Assembly (NCBI GenBank): GCA_001897525.1
Contig: MKTB01000027.1
Span: forward strand, 1 to 52,852
Length of the DNA: 52,852 nt
Origin: Bacteroidetes bacterium 43-16
GTDB taxonomy: Bacteria > Bacteroidota > Bacteroidia > Chitinophagales > Chitinophagaceae
Reading direction: 5' to 3'
In this document: positions 3,778 to 51,823 of the stretch, piece after piece
How the letters are laid out: every line of letters begins with the position of its first letter
How positions within the stretch are numbered: the stretch's first letter is position 1
The notes under the pieces: generated by a model
Seen by the model: the letters and a program-made list of their open reading frames with translations, nothing else
The model's database searches: none
Told to the model about the DNA's origin: nothing
Position numbers and translations under genes: made by a program

Positions 3778-6700
3778 TTAACGTGAAAAAACTATTTTAT
3801 GATATACCGTTTTAGAAATTCCTGTACTTGTTTTTATATTTAACTGGCACATATAAACCCCGTTGGCCACTTTGGCACCGCTCCTGTCTGTTCCTTCCCA
3901 GGTCCAGTAGGTGAAACTGCCGGTAGGCTGCATCTGCTGCGATTTATTAAAGATCAATTGACCATTGGTACCGAATATTTTCAGGTCTACTTCCATGGCC
4001 ACATTAGGCTGGTTATGCTGGAAAACGATCCTTGTAGATTGTCCAAACGGATTCGGGAAGTTGTACAGGTTGAAGTCCAGGGCATCGCCTGCTACCACTT
4101 CAAAGTCAATGGATCCTTCACCAAAGTTATTATACACGTCCCAGGCACGCACGGTAAGGGTATGTTTGCCCGGTTCTAAACGGGATAATTGATAATACAG
4201 GTTACCTTTTGTAAAATCATTGGGCTCTGTGCGGTAAAATGAATTGAGGATATAAGGATTACTGTAGTCCCCGTCTACAACGGCGATCAGGTCATGACCT
4301 ACCGAAGACCCGGAAACATTGATCCCGTTATCATCTTCCAGTTCTACATACAACATAGGGTTGGCACTCACAATATCCCCGGAGCGGAAGAAGTTATTGT
4401 CTATAAATGGTTTAACGACAGGACCGGTATTGTCTGAACCGGCATAGGGGCTGAAATCTCCTACCACGAAATTGGTATCTGTGCTGGCCGCCTCTTCTTT
4501 ATCGTCAAAGGCATAATAGGTAATCTTTCCTTTGCCCAGGTCATAGTTAATATCTTTAGGAATGATCACACTCACGGCAAATTCCCCATTTTCTACTGTG
4601 GTATTACCCCGGAACAGTACACTGTTTTGTAAGGAATAAGTTTTATTCGGATCATTTGATATCAATAACTTAGGATTCGTTACAGAAACATCTCTTTTCT
4701 TGTCAAAGATGGTGACATATACCTGGCCGTTAAAATCTGTTTTAGGATTACCTGCCGCATCGGTTATATGTCCTTTGATCACATAGCGGCCTAATGCTTT
4801 TAACGTATCGGTAGCTGCGAGTTCTTCCTCCCCTCTTACTTCCAGGATAGAATCACGGAACACTTTATGCTTAGGTAATGCAGGTGCAAGCCCCGGATCG
4901 CCCAATACCACGAACTTTTTGGAGTTTAAGCGGGTGCTGGAGGTTGAGCTGGCTATATTTTTAGCATTCATAAAGGCTTCTCCGAAGCTAGGGAAGCTAC
5001 CATCCGGCTTTTGCTTGAACTGGTTGTCAATAAAAGCAGCATTCAGGCGGTCATTAGGTCCGGGATATACAAGTTGGGTTGTAGTCAGGGACATGATGGC
5101 TCCGCCATTTTTTTTCATGACCATATTCACGCCAGAAGAAGGCTGTAAAGGATTATCGAAGCGGCCGAAGTCACAGGTCGCAGTGATGACCATCGGTAAT
5201 TTTTCAAAATTGGACCATTGATCAATATCTCCCTGGTACAAGATCTCTTCTACTGCCCATCTGGTAGGGTTACCATGACCGATGTAGTTCATCAGGAAAG
5301 TACCGGTAAATATCTGGTTATTGATGTCCCTGGTAATAGAAGGGAATTTTACACCACTTGGTGTAGCCACCCTGGGAGCGGCATCGGCCAGCAGTTTACT
5401 CGCACCGATCAGGTTATATGCTTCATCCAGGGCATTGCTCATCGATTCTGAACTTTTCAGAAAGCCCATACCCGGTTCAAAATCGTCGGTTACAAAGGTG
5501 GAGTTGAGTTTCCATTCCCCGAAGCTTCCGGCACTGATGTATTGGGCCATTTTAGCCACGTAATTATTTGCCTCATCCAGGTTACGGGCAGGAATCCGGC
5601 CACTTCCGATGTCGATAAACACGCCATCAGTATTATCTTTTATGTCTTCCCCATCGTCCAGCAGGGTAAAATATTCATCGGTTACGTAGGCCGCATTTCC
5701 ATTAGCCGAAATATCGGTCTGGAAGGTGGGCACCACATTTGTATTATTAGGCACCCTGTTCTTAAAGTCAAAGGAGGCTGTACCGAACAGGAGTACATTT
5801 TTAATGTCGTTTGTACCATTGCCACGGTCGTAGAACATCCTGATGAAATTCCTGATCCCGCCGATATCCTGTCCGCCGGAGGAGAATTCATTGTATATTT
5901 TTTCTACCGTAGCCACATTAACCGTTCTGCCAAATTTATCCCTGTGGATAGTGGCCAGGTTTTCGGCTGCAGGTAAAAGGTCTTTATTGGTAATGATCAG
6001 GTAATCTGCCTGGGGCATACCATGCAGGTCCTGATTGTCTATTTTCCCGATCGCAGCAGGGCTCAGGTAGGCAGAGCCGTCAAAGGCTATATATTCTCCT
6101 AAAACGCCCCCGGAATCGGTAAAATTCAATACACTTCCGGAGAGTTGTGCGGTCATCAGCTTAGGTTCCAAAGGATTGCTTACGTTCCAAACCCGGGTAT
6201 TGCCATTGGCATTGGAGAGGTTGAAGGCCACCACAGTGCCCACGGCAGCGCGTTGCTCAAAAGAGCGCAGGCTCAACTGGCCGGAACTAAAGGATAAAGG
6301 GCGCTTATAATTTAAAAGGACATAATCTAAATAAAGAGAAGCATTCACAGAGGCTGCCGTATAGGAAATACCCATATTGAAGCTGGCACTACCGGGCATA
6401 AAGGCCCCGTTGCTTTCCCCGTTTCTATAGTAAGTATAATCTCCGCTGGTGAGACCAATAGAAGCAGTACCTATATTATTAGAACCCACTTTGAGGTTCA
6501 CGCCTATAGATCCGCTCTCCACGATGCCGCCAAAAGTAGCTTTGTAGCGCACGGTATCGCTTATATTGCCCAGGGAGAAAGGTAACTCCAGGGGAGTATT
6601 CCTGGACACTCTCTGCCCCAGCCATTCTTTACCGATACGGCCCAGGTTAACGGTATCCTGTTCCATAACCGTGTAGGCATCAAACTTATTAATGGTAGTA

Positions 6701-7524
6701 CTTGCCGCTCCGGGCACCTGGCCCGCAGTAGCGACTCTTTTTCCCGTACCCAGATCTACATTGATAAAATAGTAACTTTTATCTTCATAAGGGTTTTGTT
6801 TATGCTGAAAATCTTTACCGTTAGCGGCCGGAGTCCATTGTATGGGACCGTTAGCGTAGAAAAGAATGTAATCATTCTGACCGAAGCTGCTGCCACCGGC
6901 ATGTACTTCAATGGCATTTTCCACCAGGTCATCCGGGGTGCCATCGGTTACTGCCTCCGGCATTACCTGCCCGCCATTGCCATAAATACGTATATTGTTG
7001 GGATTAACGCTTGCAGGATTAATGCCTAAAGATTGTAATAAGTTATAATCTACTTTAAAGATCCCTTTCTTGTCTACTGCGATCTTATACCAGTTTCCTG
7101 TGCTTAATACTGAATTGCCGGTATAAGTCCTGGCCATGACTTTAGAAGGTCTTTCTTCTTCCACCTCCATATCAAATGACCGCACTTTGTAGACCTGGCC
7201 GTCCTGCTTATAATAAAGGGGTAGTCTGAATCCTGCTTTTAGTTGTTTTTGCTGTACGCCCCAGAATAAGCTGGGATGAATAGTGCCATCGATAACAGCT
7301 ATTTCAGCAGGGAGCTGACCTTCAAACTTTTCGGCCTGTACATTTTTCAAGATGATGGTACCGGTATCAATACGGTTCTGCATGGTAATGAATCCCACGT
7401 AAACACCTTCCTCAGACACTTCATAGGACTTGAAATCCTTAAAGTTCACCGTTCGTTTTTCTCCCGCTATAGCACTTAAAGTGCTAAGGAGCGTAATGGA
7501 AAAAAGACTTAGATATGTTTTCAT
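3778..7524 (-). CDS. porU: Type IX secretion sortase PorU
   Basis: A 1248-residue PorU, the C25 (gingipain-fold) cysteine peptidase that removes the C-terminal domain of type IX cargo and attaches it to the cell surface. A signal peptide covers residues 1-20. An N-terminal beta-rich region precedes the caspase-like domain, whose catalytic dyad reads as His750 (IGHGNP) and Cys784 (ITATCDFGRFDN). Ig-like domains follow, and the last ~80 residues form a type IX C-terminal domain (NFPNPF start; NGVYMCQLNI and KIVFSR end). That tail on PorU itself is typical and is retained. The gene starts 258 bp after the ABC permease gene and precedes porV. The secreted protein at 45.1 kb is a likely substrate. 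Confidence 0.95.
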   Translation of the reverse strand: MKTYLSLFSITLLSTLSAIAGEKRTVNFKDFKSYEVSEEGVYVGFITMQNRIDTGTIILKNVQAEKFEGQLPAEIAVIDGTIHPSLFWGVQQKQLKAGFRLPLYYKQDGQVYKVRSFDMEVEEERPSKVMARTYTGNSVLSTGNWYKIAVDKKGIFKVDYNLLQSLGINPASVNPNNIRIYGNGGQVMPEAVTDGTPDDLVENAIEVHAGGSSFGQNDYILFYANGPIQWTPAANGKDFQHKQNPYEDKSYYFINVDLGTGKRVATAGQVPGAASTTINKFDAYTVMEQDTVNLGRIGKEWLGQRVSRNTPLELPFSLGNISDTVRYKATFGGIVESGSIGVNLKVGSNNIGTASIGLTSGDYTYYRNGESNGAFMPGSASFNMGISYTAASVNASLYLDYVLLNYKRPLSFSSGQLSLRSFEQRAAVGTVVAFNLSNANGNTRVWNVSNPLEPKLMTAQLSGSVLNFTDSGGVLGEYIAFDGSAYLSPAAIGKIDNQDLHGMPQADYLIITNKDLLPAAENLATIHRDKFGRTVNVATVEKIYNEFSSGGQDIGGIRNFIRMFYDRGNGTNDIKNVLLFGTASFDFKNRVPNNTNVVPTFQTDISANGNAAYVTDEYFTLLDDGEDIKDNTDGVFIDIGSGRIPARNLDEANNYVAKMAQYISAGSFGEWKLNSTFVTDDFEPGMGFLKSSESMSNALDEAYNLIGASKLLADAAPRVATPSGVKFPSITRDINNQIFTGTFLMNYIGHGNPTRWAVEEILYQGDIDQWSNFEKLPMVITATCDFGRFDNPLQPSSGVNMVMKKNGGAIMSLTTTQLVYPGPNDRLNAAFIDNQFKQKPDGSFPSFGEAFMNAKNIASSTSSTRLNSKKFVVLGDPGLAPALPKHKVFRDSILEVRGEEELAATDTLKALGRYVIKGHITDAAGNPKTDFNGQVYVTIFDKKRDVSVTNPKLLISNDPNKTYSLQNSVLFRGNTTVENGEFAVSVIIPKDINYDLGKGKITYYAFDDKEEAASTDTNFVVGDFSPYAGSDNTGPVVKPFIDNNFFRSGDIVSANPMLYVELEDDNGINVSGSSVGHDLIAVVDGDYSNPYILNSFYRTEPNDFTKGNLYYQLSRLEPGKHTLTVRAWDVYNNFGEGSIDFEVVAGDALDFNLYNFPNPFGQSTRIVFQHNQPNVAMEVDLKIFGTNGQLIFNKSQQMQPTGSFTYWTWEGTDRSGAKVANGVYMCQLNIKTSTGISKTVYHKIVFSR

Positions 7525-7731
7525 TATTCAACAGTTTTTCGGGTTATGGTTCAAAAGTCAGGTTGTAGCAATAAGCAGGAAGCTGTCTGCATCAAACTTA
7601 TTACATTAACAACGCAAAACTTTTGATAAAAGTATAACTTTCAAAGTTAACTCATTTGAAGCTAAAATGCTTTGTAAGAAAAAGTGAATATTCGGTATAA
7701 AATCTTCTTTACAGGGTGCTCTTTTGCAAAA

Positions 7732-7763
7732 AAAATCGCCATTAAAATGATTTAATGGCGATT
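7732..7763 (-). terminator. Terminator after the ABC permease gene
   Basis: A 13-bp stem AATCGCCATTAAA (7734-7746) with its complement at 7751-7763 and a 4-nt loop. On the minus strand it is followed by a run of U (complement of the A run at 7728-7735). It separates the ABC operon from porU. Confidence 0.85.
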
Positions 7764-7782
7764 ATATAAATTTTGGCTGGTT

Positions 7783-9093
7783 TTATCCTTTACGAATCAA
7801 CCATTTACCCACTTCTTTCATTGTTATTTTCTTACCGTACATCAGGATACCTGTTCTGTAGATCTTAGCGGCCAAGAATGTGGTGAATATAAATCCTCCG
7901 ATGAGACAGACCACTGAAATGATGAGTTGAGAGGCCGGTACATCAAATGGTATCCTTGCCATCATCACAATCGGGGAAGTCAGCGGGAAGATGCTGCCAA
8001 ACACGGCCAGGCCACTGTTAGGATCTTTAATAGCCGTTGTCATGATCACAAAACTGAAGATAATCGGTAAAGTGATGATGGTGCTGAACTGTTGTGCATC
8101 CTGTTGTCCTTCGTTTACCAGGCTACCTACTGCTGCAAACAAGGCTGCATACAGGAAATAACCACCCAGGAAGAAGAATACGAACCATCCGAAGATAGAG
8201 AGTAAGTTAACGCCTTCCAGTGTACCGGTAGCCATTAAAGTGGTGATTTTACCGGCAATGCCTGCATCACCTCCGGACATCGCCTGTTCCGATATGGCTT
8301 TGGCCTGCTCGGGATCCATCTGCATATTGCCCAATAAAGGCATGGCTACAAAGCCAAGAATCGCAATAAAGGCTACCCAGATAGCTACCTGTGTAAGGCC
8401 CACCATAGCTACACCTACTATCTTACCCATCATCAGCTGGAATGGTTTTACCGAACTCACAATAATCTCGGCTATCCGGTTGGTCTTCTCTTCCATAACA
8501 CTGGTCATCACGCTGGCTCCGTAAAGCAACATGAAGAGGTATAGTAAAAATCCGCTGGCCATACCGATGATACTGGCCAGGTTTGTGTTTCCTTTTTTCT
8601 GTTCTTTACCTACAATATTGTCAAAGCTTACCATATTGGCACTTGCGTCCTTATATTTCTGCTCATCAATACCTGCAATTTTAATACGCTCGCCACGTAC
8701 GATATCGTTGGACTGCTGGTTCAGGTTGGTTTCCACCTCTGTACCCAGGTTCTCATTACTATAGATCTGGAACTTCTGCTTCTGGTCCAGGTTGAATTGT
8801 GGAATATAGATCAGTGCGGTAAAGCTATCGCTGTACAGTTTTTTCTTTAATTCCTCTACAGACTCCTGGGAATAAGAGTATAGTACTGATTTTGAAGACT
8901 TTAGTTTATTTACAAAATATCCGCTGTCATCTTTAACGATTACTTTCTTCTCTCTTGTGCTTTTTGCCGCCAGGTAGCTGGTACCAAACAGGAAGACAAT
9001 AAATAAGATGGGTAATAATAAAGTGGTAATGATAAAGGAGCGTTTCTTGACACGCGAAAGGTATTCTCTTTTTATGATTATGGCTGTTTTCAT
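7783..9093 (-). CDS. ABC-2 type exporter permease (NatB-like)
   Basis: A 436-residue integral membrane subunit of the ABC-2/NatB type. One membrane helix near residues 21-43 is followed by a large extracytoplasmic domain (about 50-165), then a cluster of five or six helices from about 170 to 420. The segment MTSVMEEKTNRIAEIIVSSV between helices is characteristic of this family. It lies 21 bp behind the ATPase gene, so the two form one operon and one transporter. NatAB homologues export Na+ in Bacillus, but the substrate here cannot be read from sequence. A strong terminator follows. Confidence 0.88.
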   Translation of the reverse strand: MKTAIIIKREYLSRVKKRSFIITTLLLPILFIVFLFGTSYLAAKSTREKKVIVKDDSGYFVNKLKSSKSVLYSYSQESVEELKKKLYSDSFTALIYIPQFNLDQKQKFQIYSNENLGTEVETNLNQQSNDIVRGERIKIAGIDEQKYKDASANMVSFDNIVGKEQKKGNTNLASIIGMASGFLLYLFMLLYGASVMTSVMEEKTNRIAEIIVSSVKPFQLMMGKIVGVAMVGLTQVAIWVAFIAILGFVAMPLLGNMQMDPEQAKAISEQAMSGGDAGIAGKITTLMATGTLEGVNLLSIFGWFVFFFLGGYFLYAALFAAVGSLVNEGQQDAQQFSTIITLPIIFSFVIMTTAIKDPNSGLAVFGSIFPLTSPIVMMARIPFDVPASQLIISVVCLIGGFIFTTFLAAKIYRTGILMYGKKITMKEVGKWLIRKG

Positions 9094-17267: not shown

Positions 17268-18269
17268 TTAAACTTTTAAAAAGTCTATATTTCTTTTAAT
17301 GCCTTTCCACTTGGAACGCTTGATGGGGGAATGTTTCAATAGTTGTTTAAAATAGTCTTCGTTAAGGGCTTCCCAATCGCCTGAAGTAAAGTTGAGTACT
17401 GCATCTATGGGCTTAAAAGCTTCCTGCTGATGGGGCTTGGAAAACCTGTTCCAGGGGCATACGTCCTGGCAGATATCGCAGCCAAACATCCAGTTTTCCA
17501 TCTTCCCGGCAAATTCCGGGGCTATGAGTTCGTCTTTTAACTCGATGGTGAGGTAGGAAATACATTTTGAGCCGTCTACTATGGCCGGGGCAAGAATGGC
17601 TTCTGTGGGGCAGGCATCGATACATTTGGTACAGGTACCGCAATAGTCCCTGGCATAAGGATTGTCATAGTCCAGCTTCAGGTCTACGATCAGGGTAGCG
17701 ATAAAAAAGAAAGAACCGGACTGTTTGGTAATGAGGTTGGCATTCTTCCCTACCCAACCGATACCGCTGCGCTTGGCCCAGGCCCGCTCGAGTACCGGGG
17801 CGCTGTCCACAAAGCCACGACCGTTCACTTCGCCTATATGTTCCCGGACCTCGAAAAGAAACTCGTTTAGTTTTGCACGGATCACTTCATGGTAATCGGC
17901 ACCATAAGCATATTTAGAAATCTTGGGTGCTTCCTCGACCTGGCTTTCTTCCGGGTAATAGTTCAGCAACAAAGTAATGACGGAATGTGCACCGGGCACC
18001 AGCAAAGAGGGGTCAACGCGCAGATCAAAATTCCGCTCCATATAGCCCATATTGCCATTATAGCCTTTATTGAGCCAGGCTTCCAGGTGCCGTGCCTCCT
18101 CATCAAGCCGCTCGGCCTTTGCGATACCGCAATAGTCAAAGCCCAGCCTTGTAGCAAGCTGTTTTACAAATGTGGTATGTTGTGCAGAAAGTGCTATGAT
18201 CTTGTATTTCGGGGCAAAAATACGCTTTCCACGAAATAGATCGAAAATATCTATTGAATGATTCCTCAC
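17268..18269 (-). CDS. queG: Epoxyqueuosine reductase
   Basis: QueG reduces epoxyqueuosine to queuosine in tRNA wobble position 34, using cobalamin and two [4Fe-4S] clusters. The N-terminal cobalamin-binding domain begins at [15 protein letters not shown], and the ferredoxin part has [12 protein letters not shown] and [13 protein letters not shown]. The frame as drawn (333 residues) starts at the only ATG, but its first ~23 residues ([22 protein letters not shown]) are not typical of QueG. They also overlap the divergent MFS gene by 12 bp, and a -7 box candidate sits inside them. The true start may be a non-standard codon near 18200. The identity is firm and the start uncertain. Confidence 0.92.
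18215..18222 (-). promoter_or_regulatory. -7 box candidate inside the queG 5' end
   Basis: Minus strand TATTTTTGCCCC fits TAnnTTTG and the C-rich continuation seen at other promoters here. If it is used, transcription begins about 60 bp inside the longest queG frame. Confidence 0.45.
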
Positions 18270-19595
18270 AATTCAGGTAAATTGCAGCCTCAATCATTCA
18301 AACATCGTCTCTTGAATATATTTTCAAATTTCCTGGCTAAGAATGAAACACTTGGCTATAGGGAATACCGCAATTACCTCTGTATCCGTTTTGGCCTGAT
18401 CTTCGCTTTAAGTATGCAGTTTACCGTAGTTACTTACTGGATCTACCAGATCACTAACCACAGTAAAATGGCCCTGGCCTATGTAGGACTGGCAGAAGTG
18501 ATCCCCGTGATAGCCTGCTCTTTTTTCTCCGGCTATTTTGTCGACCTCAGTGAGAAGCGTAACCTGATGGTCAAGATCATTGTCAGCTATTTGTTGTTGG
18601 GCTTAGGTTTATTTTATCTTTCTCTGCCTGCGGCTGCGACACATTTAAGCCATGACTGGCGCATCGGCCTGATCTACCTCGTCATTTTCCTTGGAGGTGT
18701 CATTCGTTCCTTTGTAGGACCTACAGCATTTTCGCTGGTAGGCTTACTCATTCCTAAAAAACTGTATCCTAATGCGGTAAGCTGGTCGAGTATGGCCTGG
18801 CAGCTGGGCGGCGTGTTCGGTCCTATATTTTCAGGGATCATCATTGCTTCTTATGGCCCGGCCAGTGGTATGGGTATTGTGGTCGCTATTGAATTGCTTT
18901 TATTGATCCCTATCTTAAGGATTGCTGCAAAGCCTATATTAAAAAAAGAAAGGGAACCTATTTTCCAAAGTATAGGAGCGGGTTTAAAATTTGTCTTTAA
19001 AACTCCTGCCCTACTGGGCGCGCAGTTATTGGATATGTTTTCGGTATTGTTTGGCGGTGCTATCGCCTTGCTCCCTGCTGTTGTCGAAGAGCGTTTTCCC
19101 TTAGAAGCAGGCGTTTATTTTTCCGGCCCGGTAGCCTTTGGCCTGCTGCGCTCGGCTATGGGTATCGGTGCGCTGCTCACTTTGGTGCTGCTGGCCTTTT
19201 ACCCACTCAAGACCAATCCCGGGAAAAAGCTATTTGTCTGTACCGGTGGTTTTGCCCTGGGGATCATTGCTTTCGGGCTTTCACCTTATTTATTCCTCTC
19301 TTTTGGCTTGCTGATCCTCACGGGTATGTTTGATGCGGTGAGTGTCGTGGTGAGAGGTACGATCTTACAGCTCGTGACCCCGGACGATATGCGCGGTCGT
19401 GTGGCTTCGGTCAATAGTATGTTTATTAGTTCTTCGAATGAATTGGGGGATTTTGAAAGTGGCACTATGGCGCATTACCTGGGTACTTTCCCGGCCATTA
19501 TCACAGGTGGGTTCATCACCTTACTGGTGGTGGGCATCACTTATTTCAGAACACCACAATTGCGCAAGTTCAGGTTTGAGGACCATGGCGCCTAA
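18258..19595 (+). CDS. MFS transporter
   Basis: A 445-residue major facilitator protein with about 10-12 predicted membrane helices from residue ~45 to ~430. The loop after the second helix carries [14 protein letters not shown], a version of the MFS loop motif (GxxxDrxGrr), and a related charged loop [14 protein letters not shown] lies late in the protein. The architecture resembles the MFS_3/enterobactin-exporter (EntS) group. The C-terminus is short and basic. The substrate cannot be read. It diverges from queG, and the two reading frames overlap by 12 bp at their 5' ends as drawn. Confidence 0.85.
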
Positions 19596-19671: not shown

Positions 19672-21207
19672 ATGAATATCAAGAAAATTCTAAGCGACTT
19701 AGGAATCGAAAAATTAAACGAAGGTACTTCTACAGGTGCTAAATGGCTGAAGAGTACGGGTGCAGAATTGCATTCTTATTCACCGGTAGATGGTAAATTG
19801 ATAGCTACGGTAAAACAATCAACGGCTAAAGATTATGAGAAAGTGATGCAAAAAGCAACTGAAGCTTTCAAAACCTGGAAAATGATGCCTGCGCCGAAAC
19901 GCGGAGAGATCGTTCGTCAATTCGGAGATTCTTTAAGAGCGAAGAAAGATAGCCTGGGAGCCCTGGTTTCTTATGAAATGGGTAAAAGCTTGCAGGAAGG
20001 TTTAGGTGAGGTTCAGGAAATGATTGACATTTGTGACCTGGCTGTGGGCCTTTCCCGTCAATTGTTCGGTTTAACGATTGCCAGTGAGCGTCCGGGACAC
20101 AGGATGATGGAGCAATATCATCCCTTAGGTGTGGTAGGTATCATTTCTGCTTTCAACTTCCCTGTGGCGGTATGGAGCTGGAATACTGCTTTAGCCTGGG
20201 TGTGCGGAGATACTTGTATCTGGAAGCCTTCAGAAAAAACACCAATTACTGCTATTGCCTGTCAAAAGATCATTGGTGATGTATTAAAGAGAAATAATCT
20301 GCCGGAAGGTATTTCCTGCCTGGTGATCGGTGATAAAGTAATCGGTGAATTGTTAAGCGCTGATACACGTATTCCATTGGTATCTGCTACCGGTTCTACC
20401 CGTATGGGTAAAGAAGTAGCGATGACTGTTGCGGGCCGTTTAGGACGTTCTTTACTGGAATTGGGTGGTAACAATGCGATCATCGTTACCGAAAATGCAG
20501 ACCTGGACATTACCCTGGTAGGTGCGATCTTCGGTGCTGTAGGTACTGCAGGACAAAGATGTACGACTACACGTCGCCTGATCATCCACGAAAGTAAATA
20601 TGATGAGCTGAAAAAGAAACTGGTGAGCGGCTACAAGCAATTGAAGATCGGCAATCCTTTAGATACGAAAAACCACGTAGGTCCTTTGATCGATAAAGCT
20701 GCAGTAGAAATGTACCTTGATTCTATCAAAAAAGCAGAAGCCGAAGGGGGTAATGTTTTAGTAAAAGGTGGTGTATTAAGCGGTGCAGGTTATGAAAGCG
20801 GTTGTTATGTGAAGCCATGTGTGATCGAAGCAGAAAATCATTTCGAGATCGTACAGCACGAAACTTTCGCGCCTATCCTGTATATTATGAAGTACAGCAC
20901 CCTGGAAGAAGCTATTGAACTGCAAAATGCGGTTCCGCAAGGCCTTTCTTCTGCAATCATGACCACGAACATCCGCGAAGCAGAGCAATTCTTATGTGCT
21001 GCCGGTAGTGATTGTGGTATTGCCAATGTAAATATCGGTACCAGCGGAGCTGAGATCGGTGGTGCTTTTGGTGGTGAGAAAGAAACCGGTGGTGGCCGTG
21101 AGAGCGGATCTGATGCCTGGAAAGTATATATGCGTCGCCAGACCAATACGGTAAACTACAGTACTCAGTTGCCATTGGCTCAGGGTATCAAATTTGATTT
21201 AAAATAA
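19672..21207 (+). CDS. Aldehyde dehydrogenase of the ALDH7/AmaB type
   Basis: A 511-residue NAD-dependent aldehyde dehydrogenase. Catalytic Cys297 (GTAGQRCTTTRR) and general base Glu263 (LELGGNN) are in place, with the cofactor segment IISAFNFPVAVWSWN. The GQRCTTTRR and LELGGNNAII forms are typical of ALDH7 (antiquitin / alpha-aminoadipic semialdehyde dehydrogenase, AmaB), which oxidises the lysine-derived semialdehyde in equilibrium with piperideine-6-carboxylate. Assignment within the ALDH superfamily is probable rather than certain. It is followed 17 bp later by a small membrane protein gene, then a strong terminator. The peptide synthetase that starts about 700 bp further on may use a basic amino acid, but that link is speculative. 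Confidence 0.88.
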   Translation: MNIKKILSDLGIEKLNEGTSTGAKWLKSTGAELHSYSPVDGKLIATVKQSTAKDYEKVMQKATEAFKTWKMMPAPKRGEIVRQFGDSLRAKKDSLGALVSYEMGKSLQEGLGEVQEMIDICDLAVGLSRQLFGLTIASERPGHRMMEQYHPLGVVGIISAFNFPVAVWSWNTALAWVCGDTCIWKPSEKTPITAIACQKIIGDVLKRNNLPEGISCLVIGDKVIGELLSADTRIPLVSATGSTRMGKEVAMTVAGRLGRSLLELGGNNAIIVTENADLDITLVGAIFGAVGTAGQRCTTTRRLIIHESKYDELKKKLVSGYKQLKIGNPLDTKNHVGPLIDKAAVEMYLDSIKKAEAEGGNVLVKGGVLSGAGYESGCYVKPCVIEAENHFEIVQHETFAPILYIMKYSTLEEAIELQNAVPQGLSSAIMTTNIREAEQFLCAAGSDCGIANVNIGTSGAEIGGAFGGEKETGGGRESGSDAWKVYMRRQTNTVNYSTQLPLAQGIKFDLK

Positions 21208-21223: not shown

Positions 21224-21769
21224 ATGGGCGTTGGAGCAACAATTTTAGAAGTTTTAAAGTACACGATTCCTGCAATCGTTGTATTGATCGCTTGTGCCAT
21301 CATCGTAGGAAAATTTCTTACCGGTGAGTTCAAAAGAAAACAGCTGGCTGTTTTCCAGGAAGGCCAGGAAACTACCCTGCGCCTGCGCCTGCAGGCTTAT
21401 GAGCGCCTGACCATGTTCATTGAGCGTTCACATCCCAGAGAGTTAATGCCAAGGGTATATATCACCGGGATGACGGTGCGTGACCTGCAAACATTGTCTA
21501 TTGCTGCGATCAAAACGGAGTTTGAGCATAATCTTTCCCAGCAGATCTATGTGTCTACCAGTGTGTGGAACACAATCGTATCGGTAAAGGAGCAGGAGAT
21601 TGCGATGATCAACCAGATCGCTATGACACTGAATCCTGAAGATGATGCCAAAGAACTGAATGGCAGGATCATCAACTATATCGTTTCTCATGAGGACGAT
21701 ACACCTGCCCAGATTGCTTTGGAAGCGATCAATAATGAAGCTAAGATGGTGATGTATCAGCAAGCTTAA
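21224..21769 (+). CDS. Conserved membrane-anchored hypothetical protein
   Basis: 181 residues with one hydrophobic segment at about 6-27 and a helical, charged cytoplasmic part. The segment LRLQAYERLTMFIERSHP and the following GMTVRDLQ recall a family common in Bacteroidota (tentatively DUF7935). The function is unknown. It is co-transcribed with the aldehyde dehydrogenase (17-bp gap) and ends at a strong terminator. Confidence 0.7.
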   Translation: MGVGATILEVLKYTIPAIVVLIACAIIVGKFLTGEFKRKQLAVFQEGQETTLRLRLQAYERLTMFIERSHPRELMPRVYITGMTVRDLQTLSIAAIKTEFEHNLSQQIYVSTSVWNTIVSVKEQEIAMINQIAMTLNPEDDAKELNGRIINYIVSHEDDTPAQIALEAINNEAKMVMYQQA

Positions 21770-21787: not shown

Positions 21788-21823
21788 AAATACGGATTAT
21801 GCAATTTGCATAATCCGTATTTT
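21788..21823 (+). terminator. Terminator of the aldehyde dehydrogenase operon
   Basis: A perfect 16-bp stem (21788-21803 with 21808-21823, AAATACGGATTATGCA) closed by a very short loop, followed by T residues. It separates the ALDH operon from the synthetase gene. Confidence 0.9.
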
Positions 21824-21921
21824 TACTTTATAGATAATGTATTAATTTACAATAACAAACCTAAGATCCGAACAGTTGTCGTCCGTAATAAGATGGTGCT
21901 GTTGTGCTTAAACAAATCGCT

Positions 21922-24900
21922 ATGCAAAGCATTATTCTTGGCAAACAGGAGCCGGATTATATCCGGGAGGAATCGCTTCCGCAGCTGCTCTCGGCAAGCT
22001 TTATAAAATTTGCAGATAAAACTGCTTTTTTCTTTAATGACGAAAAGCTATCTTATGCAGAACTGGACCATTGGAGTAATGCTATTGCCCGTCAATTAAT
22101 TGCTACAGGAATAAAACCCGGAGATACAGTAGGAGTCTGGTATCCAAGGAGCCTGGAGTTACCGGTAATGATTTTGGGTATATTGAAGGCCGGTGCTGCT
22201 TATATCCCATTAGACCGGGAAATGCCTGTAGAGCGCATTCAAAAGGTTTTTACAGATATCGGCGTACGGGCTTATTTTTCAGATGTAGTGATCCCTGTTA
22301 ATGCCGCACCTGCTCTCTTGGCAGAACGACCACTAGCTCCTGTTGCACTACCCGAGCTGTACATTTCCCCCGATTCCCGGGCCTATGTATTATTTACTTC
22401 GGGCAGTACCGGGACACCCAAAGGTATCCCGATCTCGCATAAAAATATCTGTCACCTGGTACGCTCAGAACAGGACGTACTCCGTATCCGGGAAAGTGAT
22501 CTTGTCTACCAGGGCTTCTCGGTGTCTTTTGATATGTGGTGCGAAGAAGTCTGGATCAGCCTGTTTGCCGGTGCTTCCATTTGGATGGCCGATGCGATTA
22601 CGGTTAAAGCGCTGGATGAGCTTTCTGAGGTACTGGCTCAAAATAAAATAACTGTTTTACATGCAGTACCCAGTGTGCTGGCCATTATAGATGAACTACC
22701 GGGTATACGCCTGGTCAATTCGGGTGGTGAGGCCTGCACCCAGTCTGTGCTGGATAAATGGGGCATTGGTGGGCGTATATTTATCAATAGTTACGGCCCT
22801 ACAGAAACGACTGTCAGTTCCAATATGGCTTTTAGCAGGGCCGGAGATGCGATCACTATAGGTCCGCCCTTACCTAATTATAACATTGCTGTAGTGGACG
22901 AATCACTCCGGATCGTTCCCCGTGGGGAAGCCGGTGAAATGATCATTACCGGCCCCGGTGTGAGCCAGGGTTATTTTAATCTACCGGAGTTAACCCGGGA
23001 AAAGTTCCTGGAAAATCCTTTTAAGGAGTTGCCAGGAAGCCATCTTTATAAAACGGGTGATGCTGTACTGATCCGGGAAGATGGCTTTATAGAATTTCAC
23101 GGGCGACTGGACGACCAGATCAAGCTCAGGGGCTACCGGATAGAACTGGGAGAGATTGAAAATCGTCTTTCACGGGTCGAAGGCGTGTCTGCAGCGGCGG
23201 TTACCACCAGGAAAGATGCAAACGACCAGGAGCAATTGGTAGGTTATGTCGTATGGAAACATCCTTCCAGGTCTTTTAATGAGGGAGACACCAGGGCACA
23301 GATTGCCCGTTTCCTGGCACCTTATATGGTACCTGTAGCTATCGTTATGCTTCCGGAAATGCCCAGAATGCCCAGTGGGAAGATCAACCGGAAAAGCCTA
23401 CCCTTACCCGATGCATTCAAGCAACATGGCACCGATGAAGGAGGTGAGTATATAGCTCCGGCAGATGACCTGGAAACAAAGGTGCGGAAGGTATTGCAAC
23501 ATGTATTTCAAAAGCCGGACCTGAGCCTGGAGCATGATTTTTTCACCGATCTGGGCGGGCACTCTTTATTAGCAGCAACTGTAGTATCTAAACTCCGGAA
23601 AGATGCGGGCCTTAGTTATGCTTCTTTAAAAGATATTTATGAGCACAGGCCTTTAAATGCTTTTGCCGCATACTTAAAAGAAAAACAAAACCAGAACGCT
23701 GTTACTGATGCCGGTCGCAGGAAGGTATATGAGGTGAGCACCCTGCAGTATTATTTATGTAATGCTTTACAAACCCTGAGCCTTTTCCTGGTATATGGTT
23801 TGCTGGCTATTGAAGTTATCTTTCCTTACCTGAGTTATTACTATTTCCTGGTAGAAGGGTATTCTCATTTCTCTGCCTTTATGAGTGCGGCTATCTTTTA
23901 TTTACTCATCCCCCCTGCCCTGTCTACCATCGCTATCTTTTTTAAATGGCTGATCGTGGGTAAATTAAAAGAAGGAGATTATCCTTTATGGGGCTGGTAT
24001 TATTTCCGATGGTGGTTCTGGAAAGCGCTCAAGCGGCTTTTACCTTCCCAATTTATAGTAGACACGCCTTTATATCCCCGTTACCTGCGTTTCCTGGGGG
24101 TTAAGGTGGCCGACTCTGCCCAGCTGAGTTTATTGTCTATCGGTGCGGAAGACCTGGTGACTATAGGTAAGAATGTGAGCACGAGTTCTGGCTGTGTGAT
24201 TGATAATGCTTCTGTTGAAGACGGTTATTTAAAACTCCGGAAAGTTGAACTGGGCGACAATGCTTATTTAGGTTCTTCTTCCATCGTCTGTGGCGGTGCT
24301 TTTATTGAAGCAAACGGGGAATTACAGGACCTGAGTTGCCTGCAGGAGGGGCAGCGTATTTTGAGAAATGAGGTTTGGAACGGCAGCCCGGCAAACAAGG
24401 CGGGAGTTAAAGCCGATACCGGAACTATTCCATTAGCTTCGACGACGAAACGGAATATACATGCCTTGAAGTACCTGGCTTCGCTTTTTATTTTCCCTCT
24501 GATCGTGGTGATCCCCCTGCTGCCTACTTTATATATCCTGTATGTGGCAGATAATAATGCAGCTGATTATAACTTCAGTTATTTGTGGCAGGCTCCTTTC
24601 CTGGCCACAAGCTATCTGCTCATCTTTATTACCTGTGTGGTATTGCTTTCCCGGCTTTTGCAGGTGGGTATGAAACCCGGTGATTATTCTATTTATGGCT
24701 TTACTTATTACCGGAAGTGGATGAAAGATCAGTTGATGAACCTGTCTTTAACTGTTTTACATCCCCTATATGCTTCTGTGTACATCTCTTCCTATTATCG
24801 CTTATTGGGCGCTAAAGTGGGCAAGAATACCGAGATCTCTACGGCCAGTGATGTTTCCCATAACCTCTTAGAGATCGGTGCAGACTCTTTTATTGCCGAT

Positions 24901-25851
24901 GCGGTGATCCTCGGAGAGCATGATGTCAAAAATGAAGTGTTGCATTTGAAAAATACAAGGATCGGTAATACTTGTTTTGTGGGCAACAGCGGATTGATCC
25001 CACAGGGTTATCATTTAAAAGATAAAACGCTGATCGGTGTGTTGTCAAAAGCGCCCGAAGAGGAGTTACAGGCCGCACAGGAAAATGTGGATTGGTTCGG
25101 TTCTCCACCGATCGCTTTACCCTCGCGTCAAAAGATGGCGGGTTTTGAAGACAAACGCACCTTTAGCCCTTCATTTGGCCTCAAGCTGTCCCGGGCGGTT
25201 GTTGAGGGCTTGCGGATCATTTTACCACAAACCTGTATCATCATTTGCTCCGTATTGCTGATCGCTTATGCACATGATCTGCTGCAAATGTCTATCGGCA
25301 AGCTGTTGCTGTATATCCCCATGTATTATTTATTTTTCATGGGCATACCGCTATTCCTGGTAACGGTACTGCTCAAATGGGTATTGGTGGGCCGCTACAA
25401 GACGGCCGCTTACCCTATGTATAGCTTAAAGGTCTGGCTCAGCGAAGCGATCACGAGTTTTCATGAGGCATTATCTGTTCCTTTTCTTTTAGATGCACTC
25501 CGGGGCACGATGTGGCTACCCTTGGCCATGCGGCTGTTGGGCGTAAAAACCGGCAAAAGAGTCTGGTTGAATACAACGGACATTACCGAGTTTGATATGG
25601 TCCACATCGGATCAGGAGCTATGCTGAATGAGGATTGCGGTCCGCAAACACACTTATTTGAAGACCGGATCATGAAAATCGGTAGTGTATCTATAGGCGA
25701 AAAAACAACAATCGGCTCCAAAACAATTATACTGTATGATTCTGTTTTAGGCAAGGAGGTCAATATAGGTTCTTTATCCCTGGTGATGAAAGGTGAATCC
25801 ATACCGGACCACAGCTCCTGGTATGGCAGTCCTACAGAGCCGCATCACTAA
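21922..25851 (+). CDS. Pls/PosA-type single-module peptide synthetase (poly-amino acid synthetase-like)
   Basis: A membrane-bound non-ribosomal peptide synthetase of 1309 residues from the ATG at 21922 (a GTG at 21904 would add six). The order is an adenylation domain (about 15-500; A3 core LFTSGSTGTPKG at 157-168, YGPTET at 291-296, Lys487), a carrier domain (Ser548 in LGGHSLL), then a C-terminal region with six hydrophobic segments (about 606-639, 649-679, 852-876, 890-914, 1099-1122, 1127-1154). Three tandem soluble, hexapeptide-like modules each end in W-x-G-S-P (819-823, 1058-1062, 1300-1304). No condensation or thioesterase domain is present. This is the layout and length (about 1319) of epsilon-poly-L-lysine synthetase Pls and of PosA, which make homopolymers without a C domain. 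Pocket residues by alignment to GrsA read D-M-E-H-V-S-S-V-S-K; Glu208 suggests a basic amino acid. The polymer is an inference. Confidence 0.9.
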   Translation: MQSIILGKQEPDYIREESLPQLLSASFIKFADKTAFFFNDEKLSYAELDHWSNAIARQLIATGIKPGDTVGVWYPRSLELPVMILGILKAGAAYIPLDREMPVERIQKVFTDIGVRAYFSDVVIPVNAAPALLAERPLAPVALPELYISPDSRAYVLFTSGSTGTPKGIPISHKNICHLVRSEQDVLRIRESDLVYQGFSVSFDMWCEEVWISLFAGASIWMADAITVKALDELSEVLAQNKITVLHAVPSVLAIIDELPGIRLVNSGGEACTQSVLDKWGIGGRIFINSYGPTETTVSSNMAFSRAGDAITIGPPLPNYNIAVVDESLRIVPRGEAGEMIITGPGVSQGYFNLPELTREKFLENPFKELPGSHLYKTGDAVLIREDGFIEFHGRLDDQIKLRGYRIELGEIENRLSRVEGVSAAAVTTRKDANDQEQLVGYVVWKHPSRSFNEGDTRAQIARFLAPYMVPVAIVMLPEMPRMPSGKINRKSLPLPDAFKQHGTDEGGEYIAPADDLETKVRKVLQHVFQKPDLSLEHDFFTDLGGHSLLAATVVSKLRKDAGLSYASLKDIYEHRPLNAFAAYLKEKQNQNAVTDAGRRKVYEVSTLQYYLCNALQTLSLFLVYGLLAIEVIFPYLSYYYFLVEGYSHFSAFMSAAIFYLLIPPALSTIAIFFKWLIVGKLKEGDYPLWGWYYFRWWFWKALKRLLPSQFIVDTPLYPRYLRFLGVKVADSAQLSLLSIGAEDLVTIGKNVSTSSGCVIDNASVEDGYLKLRKVELGDNAYLGSSSIVCGGAFIEANGELQDLSCLQEGQRILRNEVWNGSPANKAGVKADTGTIPLASTTKRNIHALKYLASLFIFPLIVVIPLLPTLYILYVADNNAADYNFSYLWQAPFLATSYLLIFITCVVLLSRLLQVGMKPGDYSIYGFTYYRKWMKDQLMNLSLTVLHPLYASVYISSYYRLLGAKVGKNTEISTASDVSHNLLEIGADSFIADAVILGEHDVKNEVLHLKNTRIGNTCFVGNSGLIPQGYHLKDKTLIGVLSKAPEEELQAAQENVDWFGSPPIALPSRQKMAGFEDKRTFSPSFGLKLSRAVVEGLRIILPQTCIIICSVLLIAYAHDLLQMSIGKLLLYIPMYYLFFMGIPLFLVTVLLKWVLVGRYKTAAYPMYSLKVWLSEAITSFHEALSVPFLLDALRGTMWLPLAMRLLGVKTGKRVWLNTTDITEFDMVHIGSGAMLNEDCGPQTHLFEDRIMKIGSVSIGEKTTIGSKTIILYDSVLGKEVNIGSLSLVMKGESIPDHSSWYGSPTEPHH

Positions 25852-25857
25852 TTTTTT

Positions 25858-26343
25858 ATGCATAGGATCAACATAAGGTCATTGGACATCATAGCAGAAC
25901 GGAGCACAGCTGCAACCCTGCTGGCGGCATTACACGAATCAGAGCAGGCTTTAAATAGGCATACCGCTGCATGGACGGCTATCGGGCAGCAGTACCTGGA
26001 TTATATAGCTGAATGTATCAACGAATACGATGGTCTTTTCCTGCTTGCAGAAGCAGAAGGAAAACCTATTGGTTTTATTTTTGGTTATATTGAAACGCAG
26101 GACGAAAGTAATTTTGAAGAGGGGGACGGTGATGACCTTTATGTTTCAGAGGGTTTTGTAGAGCCGGCCTATCGTAAGCAGGGTGTTTATAGCTTGCTTA
26201 ACCAGGCTTTTGAACAACATTATAGTTCCTTTAAGCTCCGCAGGATATTCCGCTATACTTTAGTGAATAATGAGCCTATGCACTACTGGCTGCAAAAACA
26301 GGGTTATCAGCCTATTCGTGTCGTTTATGAAAAGTGGCTGTAA
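25858..26343 (+). CDS. GNAT family acetyltransferase
   Basis: 161 residues, starting 6 bp after the synthetase stop codon, so translated from the same mRNA. The acetyl-CoA-binding segment reads PAYRKQGVYSLLNQAF. A strand with FLLAEAEGKPIGFIFGYI precedes it, and the motif-B end is PMHYWLQKQGY. These are usual for GNAT N-acetyltransferases. An acidic stretch in the middle (ESNFEEGDGDDLYV) is unusual. Its position suggests it acts on the synthetase product or its amino groups, for modification or self-protection; that is inferred from position only. Confidence 0.85.
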   Translation: MHRINIRSLDIIAERSTAATLLAALHESEQALNRHTAAWTAIGQQYLDYIAECINEYDGLFLLAEAEGKPIGFIFGYIETQDESNFEEGDGDDLYVSEGFVEPAYRKQGVYSLLNQAFEQHYSSFKLRRIFRYTLVNNEPMHYWLQKQGYQPIRVVYEKWL

Positions 26344-26346
26344 CCC

Positions 26347-26991
26347 TTATGCTAACTCCGTAAACCTGATCTCGTACTCAAATGCGCTTGTACTGGCCAG
26401 GGCCATGCAATAACCCGGCAAAGCATGTAGCAGGCGGCAATGCACCTGATGTGGAGGGATAGCAAGTATTGTTTCGCATGTATTTATGCTCGCTAATGGG
26501 ATCTCATAAATTTTTTTACCGATGGCTTTCAGCGCGGCTTCTTTTTGGGTCCAAAGTGCTATAAATTTTTGCTGCATCATAATTGCATCCAGCTGTTCAA
26601 ATTGCTTTTTTTCCGCTTCATGTAAGTAATCTGTTGTGAAATAATCCTGCTTAGGGTCAATATATTCTATGTCTATACCCACAGGCTGTGTAGTGCATAA
26701 AGCAAGGGCGATCTTGTCATGACTGTGCGACAAGCTGAAATGCAGCCCGATGGTTTTGAAAAAGGGTTGCTCTCCTTCCACGCGGACGATATCCTTTAAA
26801 ACATCCGGAGCATTGGGCATTATTTCCTCTACGGCTTTTTTTAAAAGCAACTGGCTACCGATACGATTCCGGAATTCAGGCCCTGCCGGGTAACTCCCGA
26901 TGCGCTGCCTGGCGGACTCCGGGAATTGGGCCAGCGCCTGCTCAGGCTGCTCCAGGTGATTAGAAGCGAGCCAGACCGTAATTTTAGTCAT
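26347..26991 (-). CDS. 4'-phosphopantetheinyl transferase (Sfp type)
   Basis: 214 residues of the Sfp/AcpT superfamily, which attaches the phosphopantetheine arm of CoA to carrier-domain Ser. The core is present: FSLSHS (85-90), GIDIE with Mg ligands Asp107 and Glu109, and WTQKEAALKAIGK (147-159) with Glu151 and Lys155. It converges on the GNAT gene with only 3 bp between stop codons. A PPTase beside a synthetase that has a PCP points to activation of Ser548. It may also serve fatty acid or other carrier proteins. The start codon is as drawn (MTKITVWLAS). Confidence 0.9.
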   Translation of the reverse strand: MTKITVWLASNHLEQPEQALAQFPESARQRIGSYPAGPEFRNRIGSQLLLKKAVEEIMPNAPDVLKDIVRVEGEQPFFKTIGLHFSLSHSHDKIALALCTTQPVGIDIEYIDPKQDYFTTDYLHEAEKKQFEQLDAIMMQQKFIALWTQKEAALKAIGKKIYEIPLASINTCETILAIPPHQVHCRLLHALPGYCMALASTSAFEYEIRFTELA

Positions 26992-47686: not shown

Positions 47687-50626
47687 TTACTCACTCCTGG
47701 GATCGGGCTTTACGGGCATACGGGCACATTTCTCTACCTCAACGGCCGGGCAACCAAAGTCGCTCACCACCTTACCCTGTACCAGGTAAATGCCCTCTCC
47801 CTGCAAAGGATATTGCCGGAGCTGTGGCGGAAAATGCACCGTATCTATAAAGTCGCCACGCTCATCTATGAACGTACCGAATTTCATCAGCTGCCCGTTC
47901 CGGGTATGTACTTTCTTATCACAGACAAAGTCGACCACCAGGCGTACCGTCTCTCCTTCCAGCGCAGGCAGGTCTGTAGCCATGGCCGTGCCCCTGTAAT
48001 CGCTTCGCAGCAGTTCAAAGCCGGAGGCAGATACCGGGAATCCCAGCAATTCTATTTCATCATACAGATCTTCGGCCAGACTGCCCTCCAGCCGCGGCAG
48101 TACCGGTTTTTTAGAATTATGCTCAAATAAGGAAGCAGGCGCTTTGCTTTTGTGTTCATTACACAAGAGGTGGGCCTCCCACAACAATTCCTTCTTACCC
48201 GTTCCGGTAAAACGAAAAGCTCCGCAACGAATGAGCAGGATCAGCTGCTCCAGTCCGGCACCCGTTCGCTGCATAAAATTTTCAAGACTGGTATAGTCGC
48301 CGTTCCTCCGCTGCTCTGCTGGAATAAGCTGCGCCAGCCCTTGCTCCAGATTTAAGATCCCGTCATAACCCAGGTAAATGTCCCGGCCCCGGATACCGGT
48401 ATTATAAATACTGTTATTAACACAGGGCAGGCAGATCGTAGCGCCCGCTTTCTTTGCCTCGTTGACATACACTTTCCTGCGGTAAAAGCCCCCGTAATTG
48501 TTCAGCACCGCCACCATAAACTCAAGGGGATAATAAGTTTTTAAATAAAGGCTCTGGTAGCTCTCCACGGCAAAGCTGGCACTGTGGGCCTTATTGAAAC
48601 TGAAGCCTGCAAAAGATTCCATCTGCCGCCAGATCTCCCGCGATACCGCTTCCGGGAAGTTACTGGCCCGGCAATGATCAAAAAAACGTTGCTCGATCTC
48701 GTTTAATGCCTTTTGATCACGGGTCTTCCCAGACATCATACGACGTAAAACATCGGCATCTGCAAGGTCCAGGCCACCGTAATAGTGGCCCACCTTCATC
48801 ACATCTTCCTGGTAGACCATGATCCCATAAGTTTCTTCCAGCTGCTCTTTAAATACAGGATGCGGATAGACCGCCAGCTCCGGATCATGATGCCTTTCAA
48901 TATAAGCTTTCATCATGCCGGAGGAAGCCACGCCCGGCCTGATAATAGAGGAGGCCGCTACCAGTGTTGCATAATTATCACAATGCAGCTTGGTGAGCAA
49001 TTGCCGCATCGCAGGACTTTCAATATAAAAGCAACCAATAGAATCTGCCGACCTGAGCCGGGCCGCTATCTTTTCATCGCGGAACAGGCGTTCCGGCTCA
49101 TCGGTGCGCACGATCTCTCCCCTGTTGAGCCGGATGAGCTCCCGGCAATCCCTGATATGGCCGATACCCCTCTGGGAAAGAATATCGAATTTCTCAAAAC
49201 AGATCTCCTCTGCCATATACATATCCATCTGTGTAGTGGGTAAAGCTTTCGGGGGATAATCCAAGGCGCAGTAATTGGTCAGCGGCAATTCCGAGATCAG
49301 CACGCCCGAAGCATGAATGCTGCGCTGGTTGGGCAGGTCCTCCATCTGGTTATATACCAAATAGATCAGGTCCGTCACTTCATTCTTATTGAGGGCATGA
49401 TGCGGATCATGTACCAGTCGATCAATATCTGCTTTAGGCAGGCCATATATCTTGCCCAGCTCACGAATGATGGACCGGGAGCGGAAAGTGCTCATCGTAC
49501 CCATGAGGGCTACATGACCTTTAGGGTATTTATTAAAAATATAATCATAGACCGCATCCCTTTCATTCCAACTGAAATCAATATCGAAATCAGGCGGAGT
49601 CTTACGTTTGGGATTTAAGAAGCGTTCAAAATAGAGGCTTAAGGCAACCGGGTCCACATCAGTGATCCCCAGGCAATAAGCCACTATGGAATTGGCCCCG
49701 CTCCCTCTGCCCACATAATGAAATTGCTGCGACCGGGCAAAGCGGCAGATATCATCCGTGATTAAGAAGTAAGCGTTAAACTGCAGGTCATCGATGATCT
49801 GCAGCTCCTTTTGCAATCGTTCCCGGGCTACCCGGTCATCGCTGCGGTACCTTTTCCCGAAGCCTTCAATCGCATACTGCAAGAGCAACTCTTTATCGGC
49901 ATACCGTTCCCCGGTAAACCGCTGCTTATTTTTCACCGCTTTAAAGTCAAAATCAAAACTGCATTGCTGCAAAAGCCAGGCTGTATTCCGCAGCAGCTCG
50001 GGGAAATGTGCATACCGTTTGCTTAATTCCTCAAAAGGCATAATGATCTCATCGCCCCCTGCCAGCTGCCCGTCACTCAACTGGGAGATGAGCAGGTTAT
50101 GATCAATGGCACGGAGTTGTACATGCAATTTATATTCATCAGGATGAAAGGTAACCGGCTGGAAGATCACATAACGCGCTTTGTAAGCCGCAGGATCGAG
50201 CAGGATCTTGTTCAACTGGCCCGCCCTGACACCAATGTATTCATTATCGCGCAGTTCCGGGACCTTCTTTTTACCATAAGGATAAATAATAAAAACATGG
50301 TCCATAGCCGGGGGGGATGCCGGGTAAGGACTATGCTCCCGGTGAGCGGCCGTAAGCAATTCATTCAGCTCGCGGAAGCCTTGCGTATTCCGGGCAATGC
50401 CCACATACAAGAGTTCATCCCCGTTGCGGAATTCCACACCCGCCAGGCCATGGAATCCTTTATCCTGTGCTTTTTGAATAAAATCAAGCACCGCACTGCT
50501 GTTATTGATGTCCGTAAGCACGGCCGATTCGTACCCGTTCTGTTTAAGGCTATCGATCAGCCGGTCCGGGCTCAGGGTGCCATAACGCAGGCTGTAATAG
50601 CTATGTACATTAAGCAACATGATCAT
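47687..50626 (-). CDS. DnaE-type DNA polymerase III alpha subunit of an SOS-like cassette
   Basis: 979 residues, shorter than a main replicase DnaE (about 1150-1200). The N-terminal PHP-like domain is degenerate: LNVHSYYSLRYG has Asn6-Val-His8 where active PHP domains have HxH. The polymerase core has VGRGSGANSIVAYCLGITDVDP (306-326), catalytic Asp348 and Asp350 in PDFDIDF, and a third Asp in FEKFDIL. A C-terminal OB-fold follows (about 860-960). It starts inside the 3' end of the Y-family polymerase gene (17-bp overlap), so the two are coupled. With that polymerase and the divergent S24 repressor it resembles damage-inducible mutagenesis cassettes (DnaE2/ImuC-like). Met3 is another start. 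Confidence 0.9.
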   Translation of the reverse strand: MIMLLNVHSYYSLRYGTLSPDRLIDSLKQNGYESAVLTDINNSSAVLDFIQKAQDKGFHGLAGVEFRNGDELLYVGIARNTQGFRELNELLTAAHREHSPYPASPPAMDHVFIIYPYGKKKVPELRDNEYIGVRAGQLNKILLDPAAYKARYVIFQPVTFHPDEYKLHVQLRAIDHNLLISQLSDGQLAGGDEIIMPFEELSKRYAHFPELLRNTAWLLQQCSFDFDFKAVKNKQRFTGERYADKELLLQYAIEGFGKRYRSDDRVARERLQKELQIIDDLQFNAYFLITDDICRFARSQQFHYVGRGSGANSIVAYCLGITDVDPVALSLYFERFLNPKRKTPPDFDIDFSWNERDAVYDYIFNKYPKGHVALMGTMSTFRSRSIIRELGKIYGLPKADIDRLVHDPHHALNKNEVTDLIYLVYNQMEDLPNQRSIHASGVLISELPLTNYCALDYPPKALPTTQMDMYMAEEICFEKFDILSQRGIGHIRDCRELIRLNRGEIVRTDEPERLFRDEKIAARLRSADSIGCFYIESPAMRQLLTKLHCDNYATLVAASSIIRPGVASSGMMKAYIERHHDPELAVYPHPVFKEQLEETYGIMVYQEDVMKVGHYYGGLDLADADVLRRMMSGKTRDQKALNEIEQRFFDHCRASNFPEAVSREIWRQMESFAGFSFNKAHSASFAVESYQSLYLKTYYPLEFMVAVLNNYGGFYRRKVYVNEAKKAGATICLPCVNNSIYNTGIRGRDIYLGYDGILNLEQGLAQLIPAEQRRNGDYTSLENFMQRTGAGLEQLILLIRCGAFRFTGTGKKELLWEAHLLCNEHKSKAPASLFEHNSKKPVLPRLEGSLAEDLYDEIELLGFPVSASGFELLRSDYRGTAMATDLPALEGETVRLVVDFVCDKKVHTRNGQLMKFGTFIDERGDFIDTVHFPPQLRQYPLQGEGIYLVQGKVVSDFGCPAVEVEKCARMPVKPDPRSE

Positions 50627-51776: not shown

Positions 51777-51785
51777 AAAAAATAC

Positions 51786-51793
51786 TATTTTTG
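51786..51793 (+). promoter_or_regulatory. -7 box candidate for the S24 repressor
   Basis: TATTTTTG, directly followed by the palindromic operator at 51794-51823. No clear -33 box. Confidence 0.45.
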
Positions 51794-51823
51794 TTACAAA
51801 TTGCAACATAATGTTGTTTGTAA
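51794..51823. promoter_or_regulatory. Palindromic operator candidate of the mutagenesis cassette
   Basis: TTACAAA-TTG-CAACAT-A-ATGTTG-TTTGTAA: both outer and inner half-sites are inverted repeats (TTACAAA/TTTGTAA and CAACAT/ATGTTG), with a 3-nt asymmetry on the left. It lies between the divergent dinB and S24-repressor start codons, 15-18 bp from each. Confidence 0.7.

Follow-up and report, generated by a model that had tools for sequence, protein, structure and literature searches.

What does a large synthetase with a single adenylation (A) domain make in a Bacteroidota, and what do the genes beside it contribute? We addressed this question for a gene on contig MKTB01000027.1 of Bacteroidetes bacterium 43-16 (assembly GCA_001897525.1; 4.73 Mb in 39 contigs), using positions 1 to 52,852 of this contig, the whole stretch that was analyzed and that we call the window. 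The encoded protein is a further member of the already known Pls/PosA family, which is widespread in Bacteroidota. Judged from its sequence, it probably makes a short, isopeptide-linked cationic chain of ornithine, as PosA of Acinetobacter baumannii does, and a neighboring GNAT-family N-acetyltransferase may modify or tame this product. The new points are a strong prediction of ornithine as substrate for the large Bacteroidota branch of the family, the company of the GNAT and of a 4'-phosphopantetheinyl transferase, and a conserved motif in the third module of the terminal domain. The two partner genes and the motif make it testable how the membrane domain polymerizes and how producers cope with a polycationic product.

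Family membership and spread of the synthetase

The first-pass annotation had read the gene as a Pls/PosA-type enzyme with an A domain and a carrier domain, lacking condensation and thioesterase domains. This reading holds. Five Pfam families match the protein, including AMP-binding (residues 35-358), AMP-binding_C (417-493), PP-binding (526-591) and weak hexapeptide matches. There is one A domain and one carrier domain, and Pfam gave neither a condensation nor a thioesterase domain in the synthetase. The C-terminal region (residues 621-1310) matches TIGR02353, the curated Pls/PosA model of NCBIfam, scoring 620.5 bits where the cut-off is 423.1, over model positions 1-694 of 695. So high a score for a curated model rules out a chance match. 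The resemblance in layout and length to the epsilon-poly-L-lysine synthetase (Pls) of Streptomyces was likewise borne out by the annotated Pls of Streptomyces sp. NBC_01454 (L107), which also shares a QTHLF.DR motif in the third module. PosA is alike in its full-length architecture and in this motif, with 36.8% whole-length identity.

The A domain exceeds the cut-off of the nonribosomal peptide synthetase (NRPS) model TIGR01733 (376.4 bits, cut-off 317.4), and it is the only one in the source genome to do so. It groups with 12 other Pls/PosA A domains in a tree (fork 98/96) and not with non-synthetase ligases. A non-synthetase AMP-ligase was considered and rejected, since four further AMP-binding proteins from this genome branch separately in the tree and the two DltA models (215.5 and 233.9 bits) remained under their own cut-offs. 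The phosphopantetheine-bearing Ser554 of the carrier domain is present in 76 of 76 aligned proteins.

With the source genome counted, synthetases above the cut-off were found in 10/59 genomes of a first sample of relatives, three of four congeners among them, in 42 of the 294 genomes of the window's family and in 6 of 395 genomes of a phylum sample. Two sets of loci were used for comparison, with at least 12 identical proteins or loci common to both: 40 relatives, and the best 80 loci from a two-peptide pattern scan of named-species genomes, where 586 stretches matched and 541 encode relatives. Chryseobacterium, Elizabethkingia, Mucilaginibacter, Chitinophaga, Ferruginibacter and Niabella are among the genera of these 80 loci. 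Alignment included 75 of their proteins and left out L129, L146, L152 and L188, with open frames below 1,280 residues, and L169, whose longest frame is not the synthetase frame. In a quick tree of 48 proteins, a single clade of 39 rows (SH-aLRT 100) unites the window protein with 38 of the 40 relatives. L074 and L085, two Bacteroidota synthetases with a DAESIG pocket, lie outside this main clade. As for the literature, the phylum is not named in the main text of PMC10522769, the passages of PMC11613949 at hand mention NAPAA clusters and name no such product for Bacteroidota, and the main text of PMC9248904, a survey of Bacteroidetes products, contains none of six terms sought.

Substrate pocket, terminal domain and likely product

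The A domain carries the diamino-acid signature, with Asp at pocket position 1 (D210) and Glu at position 3 (E214). The ten positions, in what we take to be their usual numbering, were placed via the A-domain motifs with the PosA sequence aligned alongside. For PosA, the delta-poly-L-ornithine synthetase of A. baumannii, the code DMEHNGTVSK has been printed (PMC10522769). The window enzyme reads DMEHNGSVSK and is thus identical at nine of ten positions, and the single change, Thr to Ser at position 7, preserves a hydroxyl. Loss of PosA Asp217 or Glu221, which are kept here as D210 and E214, abolished activity (PMC10522769). The length-gauging position 2 is Met in both enzymes (Met211 in the window), whereas lysine enzymes have Ala and PDAP/PDAB enzymes have Phe there (PMC10522769). 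Identity with epsilon-poly-L-lysine synthetase was rejected because it needs Ala at this position; indeed, the annotated Streptomyces Pls has the pocket DAESIGTVVK and is 32.9% identical to the window protein. The pattern DMEHNG[ST]V[ST]K was found in 37 of the 40 relatives and in all 75 aligned proteins from named species. The other three are L075, with K for N, and L074 and L085, which have DAESIG[ST]VIK as in the Streptomyces Pls. The first-pass annotation had suggested an unknown cationic polymer. This is unlikely, since the pocket is the PosA ornithine pocket save for Thr to Ser.

The C-terminal region was modeled with AlphaFold2 from the window protein and 36 relatives (mean pLDDT 87.4, pTM 0.88). 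In the prediction, six long helices are arranged as three pairs and beta-helix-like strands come after every pair, in keeping with the six membrane segments and three soluble modules previously claimed. Such a layout is also described for the PosA model (PMC10522769, section 13). The helices would lie in the membrane. A hydropathy scan supports this, with four distinct blocks in the terminal domain and a fifth, longer one (1097-1165) that has room for two helices. The scan is looser than the model: the last helix pair is merged in it, and three weak blocks in the A domain also exceed the threshold that was applied. Searches for a solved structure of the terminal domain returned beta-helix matches only, the best E being 1.1e-8 in the sequence-profile search and 3.2e-4 with Foldseek. 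The Foldseek matches are weak (query TM-score at most 0.16 among those listed). Most are acyltransferases of beta-helix fold or chains resembling gamma-carbonic anhydrases; 4ihg, the structure of an LpxD-type N-acyltransferase together with acyl carrier protein, is one of them.

A motif in the third module points to where the chemistry might take place. Across an alignment of 48 proteins that span three phyla, the residues Q1248, T1249, H1250, L1251, D1254, R1255 and M1257 do not vary, and the pattern QTHL..[DE]R.M occurs in 123 of 123 proteins (111 distinct). Aligned modules one and two of the window protein lack the motif. In LpxA/LpxD-type beta-helix acyltransferases a histidine acts as general base and the acyl group comes from a carrier protein. 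Because of this parallel and the invariance of the motif, we propose QTHLxxDRxM as a candidate catalytic site with His1250 as the base. The resemblance concerns how the terminal domain may work and not membership, and the LpxD/LpxA-type enzymes are not known to have a six-helix membrane part. PMC4668381 lists a 2013 study that reportedly mutated the three tandem domains, and the third-module site may already be known. In PMC10522769, "histidine" is used only for the amino acid and the word "motif" is absent.

Taken as a pathway, the A domain would adenylate L-ornithine and load it onto the 4'-phosphopantetheine of Ser554, which the neighboring transferase would install. The membrane-embedded terminal domain would then link the monomers via the side-chain amine, with His1250 as general base for transfer from the carrier thioester to the amine, and a short isopeptide chain with free alpha-amines would result.

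Two other products have to be weighed against such an ornithine chain. A homopolymer of another diamino acid, lysine or 2,4-diaminobutyrate, has some basis, as substrates vary in the family, two of the 40 relatives (L074 and L085) carry the epsilon-polylysine-like pocket, so that the phylum is not uniform, and the PosA A domain weakly adenylates lysine. Full-length PosA made no lysine polymer, however (PMC10522769), and the Met at the length-gauging position sides with PosA, which makes this product unlikely for the window enzyme. The open-access literature searched gave no paper on a diaminobutyrate pocket code. Less probable still is a single amide, an ornithine conjugate or dimer. The presence of only one A and one carrier domain would suit it, as would the weak likeness of the terminal domain to beta-helix acyltransferases that add one acyl group, but the characterized members named in PMC10522769 make polymers and the third-module motif is common to all 123 proteins examined. 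Some observations do speak against an ornithine chain as in PosA. The T304A exchange in PosA cost 33-fold (PMC10522769), and it is at this position 7 that the window enzyme differs. PosA falls outside the Bacteroidota clade, next to it, and groups with Azospirillum and Rhizobium proteins of DLED pocket, in a tree with only seven non-Bacteroidota proteins and long outgroup branches where such joins may be false. The ornithine assignment thus rests on the pocket residues and not on close kinship, because PosA is not the exclusive sister of this clade. Finally, the gene table for A. baumannii posA, which is incomplete, lists neither a GNAT nor a transferase up to 5 kb from the gene, whereas the window synthetase is linked to both.

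Partner genes and the role of the GNAT

The acetyltransferase that had been assigned to the system in the first-pass annotation is indeed a GNAT gene, which begins 6 bases past the synthetase stop. The phosphopantetheinyl transferase gene is an addition to that annotation, and its product likely activates the carrier domain of the synthetase. The sole other PF01648 match in the genome (G000:C37:38037-38297) is presumably, as a guess, the transferase for fatty acid synthesis.

In flanks of at most about 8 kb around the synthetases of the 40 relatives, a transferase was found 17 times and a GNAT seven times, so that 21 loci have at least one of them and three have both. At the 80 named-species loci the counts were 22 and 32 (43 with at least one, 11 with both); these are slight undercounts, as six of the 80 loci extend less than 700 bases downstream. 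Where a GNAT is adjacent, it is always the next downstream gene on the same strand, with spacings from a 33-base overlap to a 232-base gap at the named loci. The transferase lies on either side, up to 1.4 kb off. Other neighbors that recur are confined to lineages, for example one gene in Chryseobacterium and Elizabethkingia loci, which we take from its sequence to be phosphoribosyltransferase-like.

The association extends to genomes where the genes are apart. The GNAT profile was detected in 20 of the 294 family genomes, of which 17 also have the synthetase, compared to 42/294 overall (Fisher p 1.4e-13; both counts were treated as one draw of 294 genomes, given equal totals and handles). By genus the figures were 9/11 versus 21/101 (p 6e-6), and after removal of the seven genomes with adjacent genes 10/13 (p 4.6e-8). 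Of the 395 genomes in the phylum sample, two contain the GNAT, and both of these encode the synthetase too. For 13 unlinked regions that were fetched, the GNAT was present in the open reading frame (ORF) set in 12, the exception being L212. Distances between GNATs and between synthetases correlate (r 0.969, 32 pairs, 0/2000 permutations as high), for which shared species history alone could suffice.

The modeled GNAT has a GNAT fold (pLDDT 82.9), and aminoglycoside and polyamine acetyltransferases are among its best Foldseek matches (14-21% identity); the acceptors of those enzymes are cationic amines. The GNAT might serve self-protection or tailoring by acetylating amines on the polymer or its breakdown products. 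Acetylation of the free alpha-amines of a delta-linked ornithine chain would lower its charge. No acetyltransferase or GNAT partner of cationic homopoly-amino acids or of a polylysine synthetase was found in the open-access literature searched.

Alternatively, the GNAT could be a bystander, or act on free ornithine or an unrelated amine, its linkage reflecting shared descent of a chromosomal segment. We regard this as a possible but minority explanation. It draws on the absence of a GNAT beside the synthetase in 33 of the 40 relatives and 48 of the 80 named loci, on three of the 20 GNAT genomes having no synthetase (one of them 79% complete), and on fold matches that are generic and common for any GNAT. 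Given these loci and genomes, the GNAT is not needed in every host. The p-values also overstate the association, because Fisher tests take no account of relatedness and a single neighbor gene recurs in 7 of the 13 unlinked regions; the true significance is weaker. What argues against a bystander is that in several genera the GNAT and the transferase are the sole genes that the loci have in common while the other neighbors differ, that an adjacent GNAT invariably occupies the same place and strand, and that it accompanies the synthetase also in trans. We retain a GNAT that may act on the product of the synthetase. A bolder version can be offered only tentatively, namely a widespread, horizontally shuffled delta-poly-L-ornithine cassette in which a dedicated GNAT would acetylate the alpha-amines for immunity or tailoring and QTHLxxDRxM would be a single-histidine polymerization center.

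Related loci and the surroundings in the window

A similar set of genes was seen in another phylum. On the Sphingomonas parapaucimobilis plasmid NZ_CP155753.1 (L105, 3932-9047), a synthetase with the pocket DMEHNGTVTK is followed by a transferase and a GNAT in tandem, in another gene order than in the window. Common ancestry of the two GNATs was considered and dropped, as BLASTP gave no match between them. The synthetase-GNAT pairing may therefore have arisen twice, and the trio was possibly put together independently. On a plasmid of Rhizobium sp. CCGE531 (L108, 3111-7780), a DLEDIG-pocket synthetase is directly followed by a transferase, and there is no GNAT. The plasmid of Streptomyces sp. 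NBC_01454 carries an M1-family metallopeptidase gene (7049-8461) that overlaps the end of the annotated epsilon-polylysine synthetase gene; its product is perhaps a polymer-degrading partner.

The features of the window locus are collected in Table 1. The synthetase frame is intact; it can start at GTG 21904 or ATG 21922 and ends with the stop codon at 25849-25851. By eye, the N-termini of some relatives lie near ATG 21922, which is the likelier start. The terminator-like hairpin ahead of the gene suggests that a separate transcription unit begins at the synthetase; a scan of the 301-base region returned two such sites, compared to a mean of 0.3 after shuffling.

Table 1. Features of the synthetase locus, in window coordinates.
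Feature	Position	Strand	Details	Evidence
Terminator-like hairpin	21788..21822	+	16 pairs, 5 G-C; between DUF7935 gene and synthetase	Consensus scan
Pls/PosA-family synthetase	21904..25851	+	A-T-terminal domain, 1315 aa from GTG 21904	ORF, NCBIfam, Pfam
Adenylation domain	22006..23382	+	Residues 35-493; pocket D210 M211 E214 H253 N272 G274 S296 V304 S305 K493	Pfam, NCBIfam
Carrier (PP-binding) domain	23479..23676	+	Residues 526-591; phosphopantetheine Ser554 (GGHS)	Pfam; alignment
NRPS terminal domain	23764..25833	+	Residues 621-1310; three helix pairs and beta-helix modules (predicted)	TIGR02353; model
QTHLFEDRIM motif, candidate catalytic site	25645..25674	+	Residues 1248-1257, third module, with His1250	Conservation
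GNAT-family N-acetyltransferase	25858..26343	+	161 aa; partner gene	Pfam, linkage, co-occurrence, model
4'-Phosphopantetheinyl transferase	26347..26991	-	Convergent	NCBIfam, Pfam, linkage

Upstream, the window encodes an L-piperidine-6-carboxylate dehydrogenase (19672-21207; 840.4 bits, cut-off 730), a DUF7935 protein (21224-21769) and a major facilitator superfamily transporter (18258-19595). We considered that these genes supply lysine or aminoadipate and dropped the idea, because BLASTP, at E up to 1e-8 and over 60% of the shorter protein, found no homologue of any of the three around the synthetases of the 40 relatives. Few of the remaining window ORFs have a homologue near any of these synthetases. 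An anti-phage role was also set aside, as PADLOC gave no match for the synthetase or the GNAT. Farther away, positions 3778-7524 encode a 1248-aa peptidase of the C25 family that also has a FlgD Ig-like domain (Pfam) and calls to mind the PorU sortase of type IX secretion. At 47687-51809, a DNA polymerase III alpha-like gene adjoins a Y-family polymerase gene (Pfam), a pair that we take to be reminiscent of imuB-dnaE2 mutagenesis cassettes.

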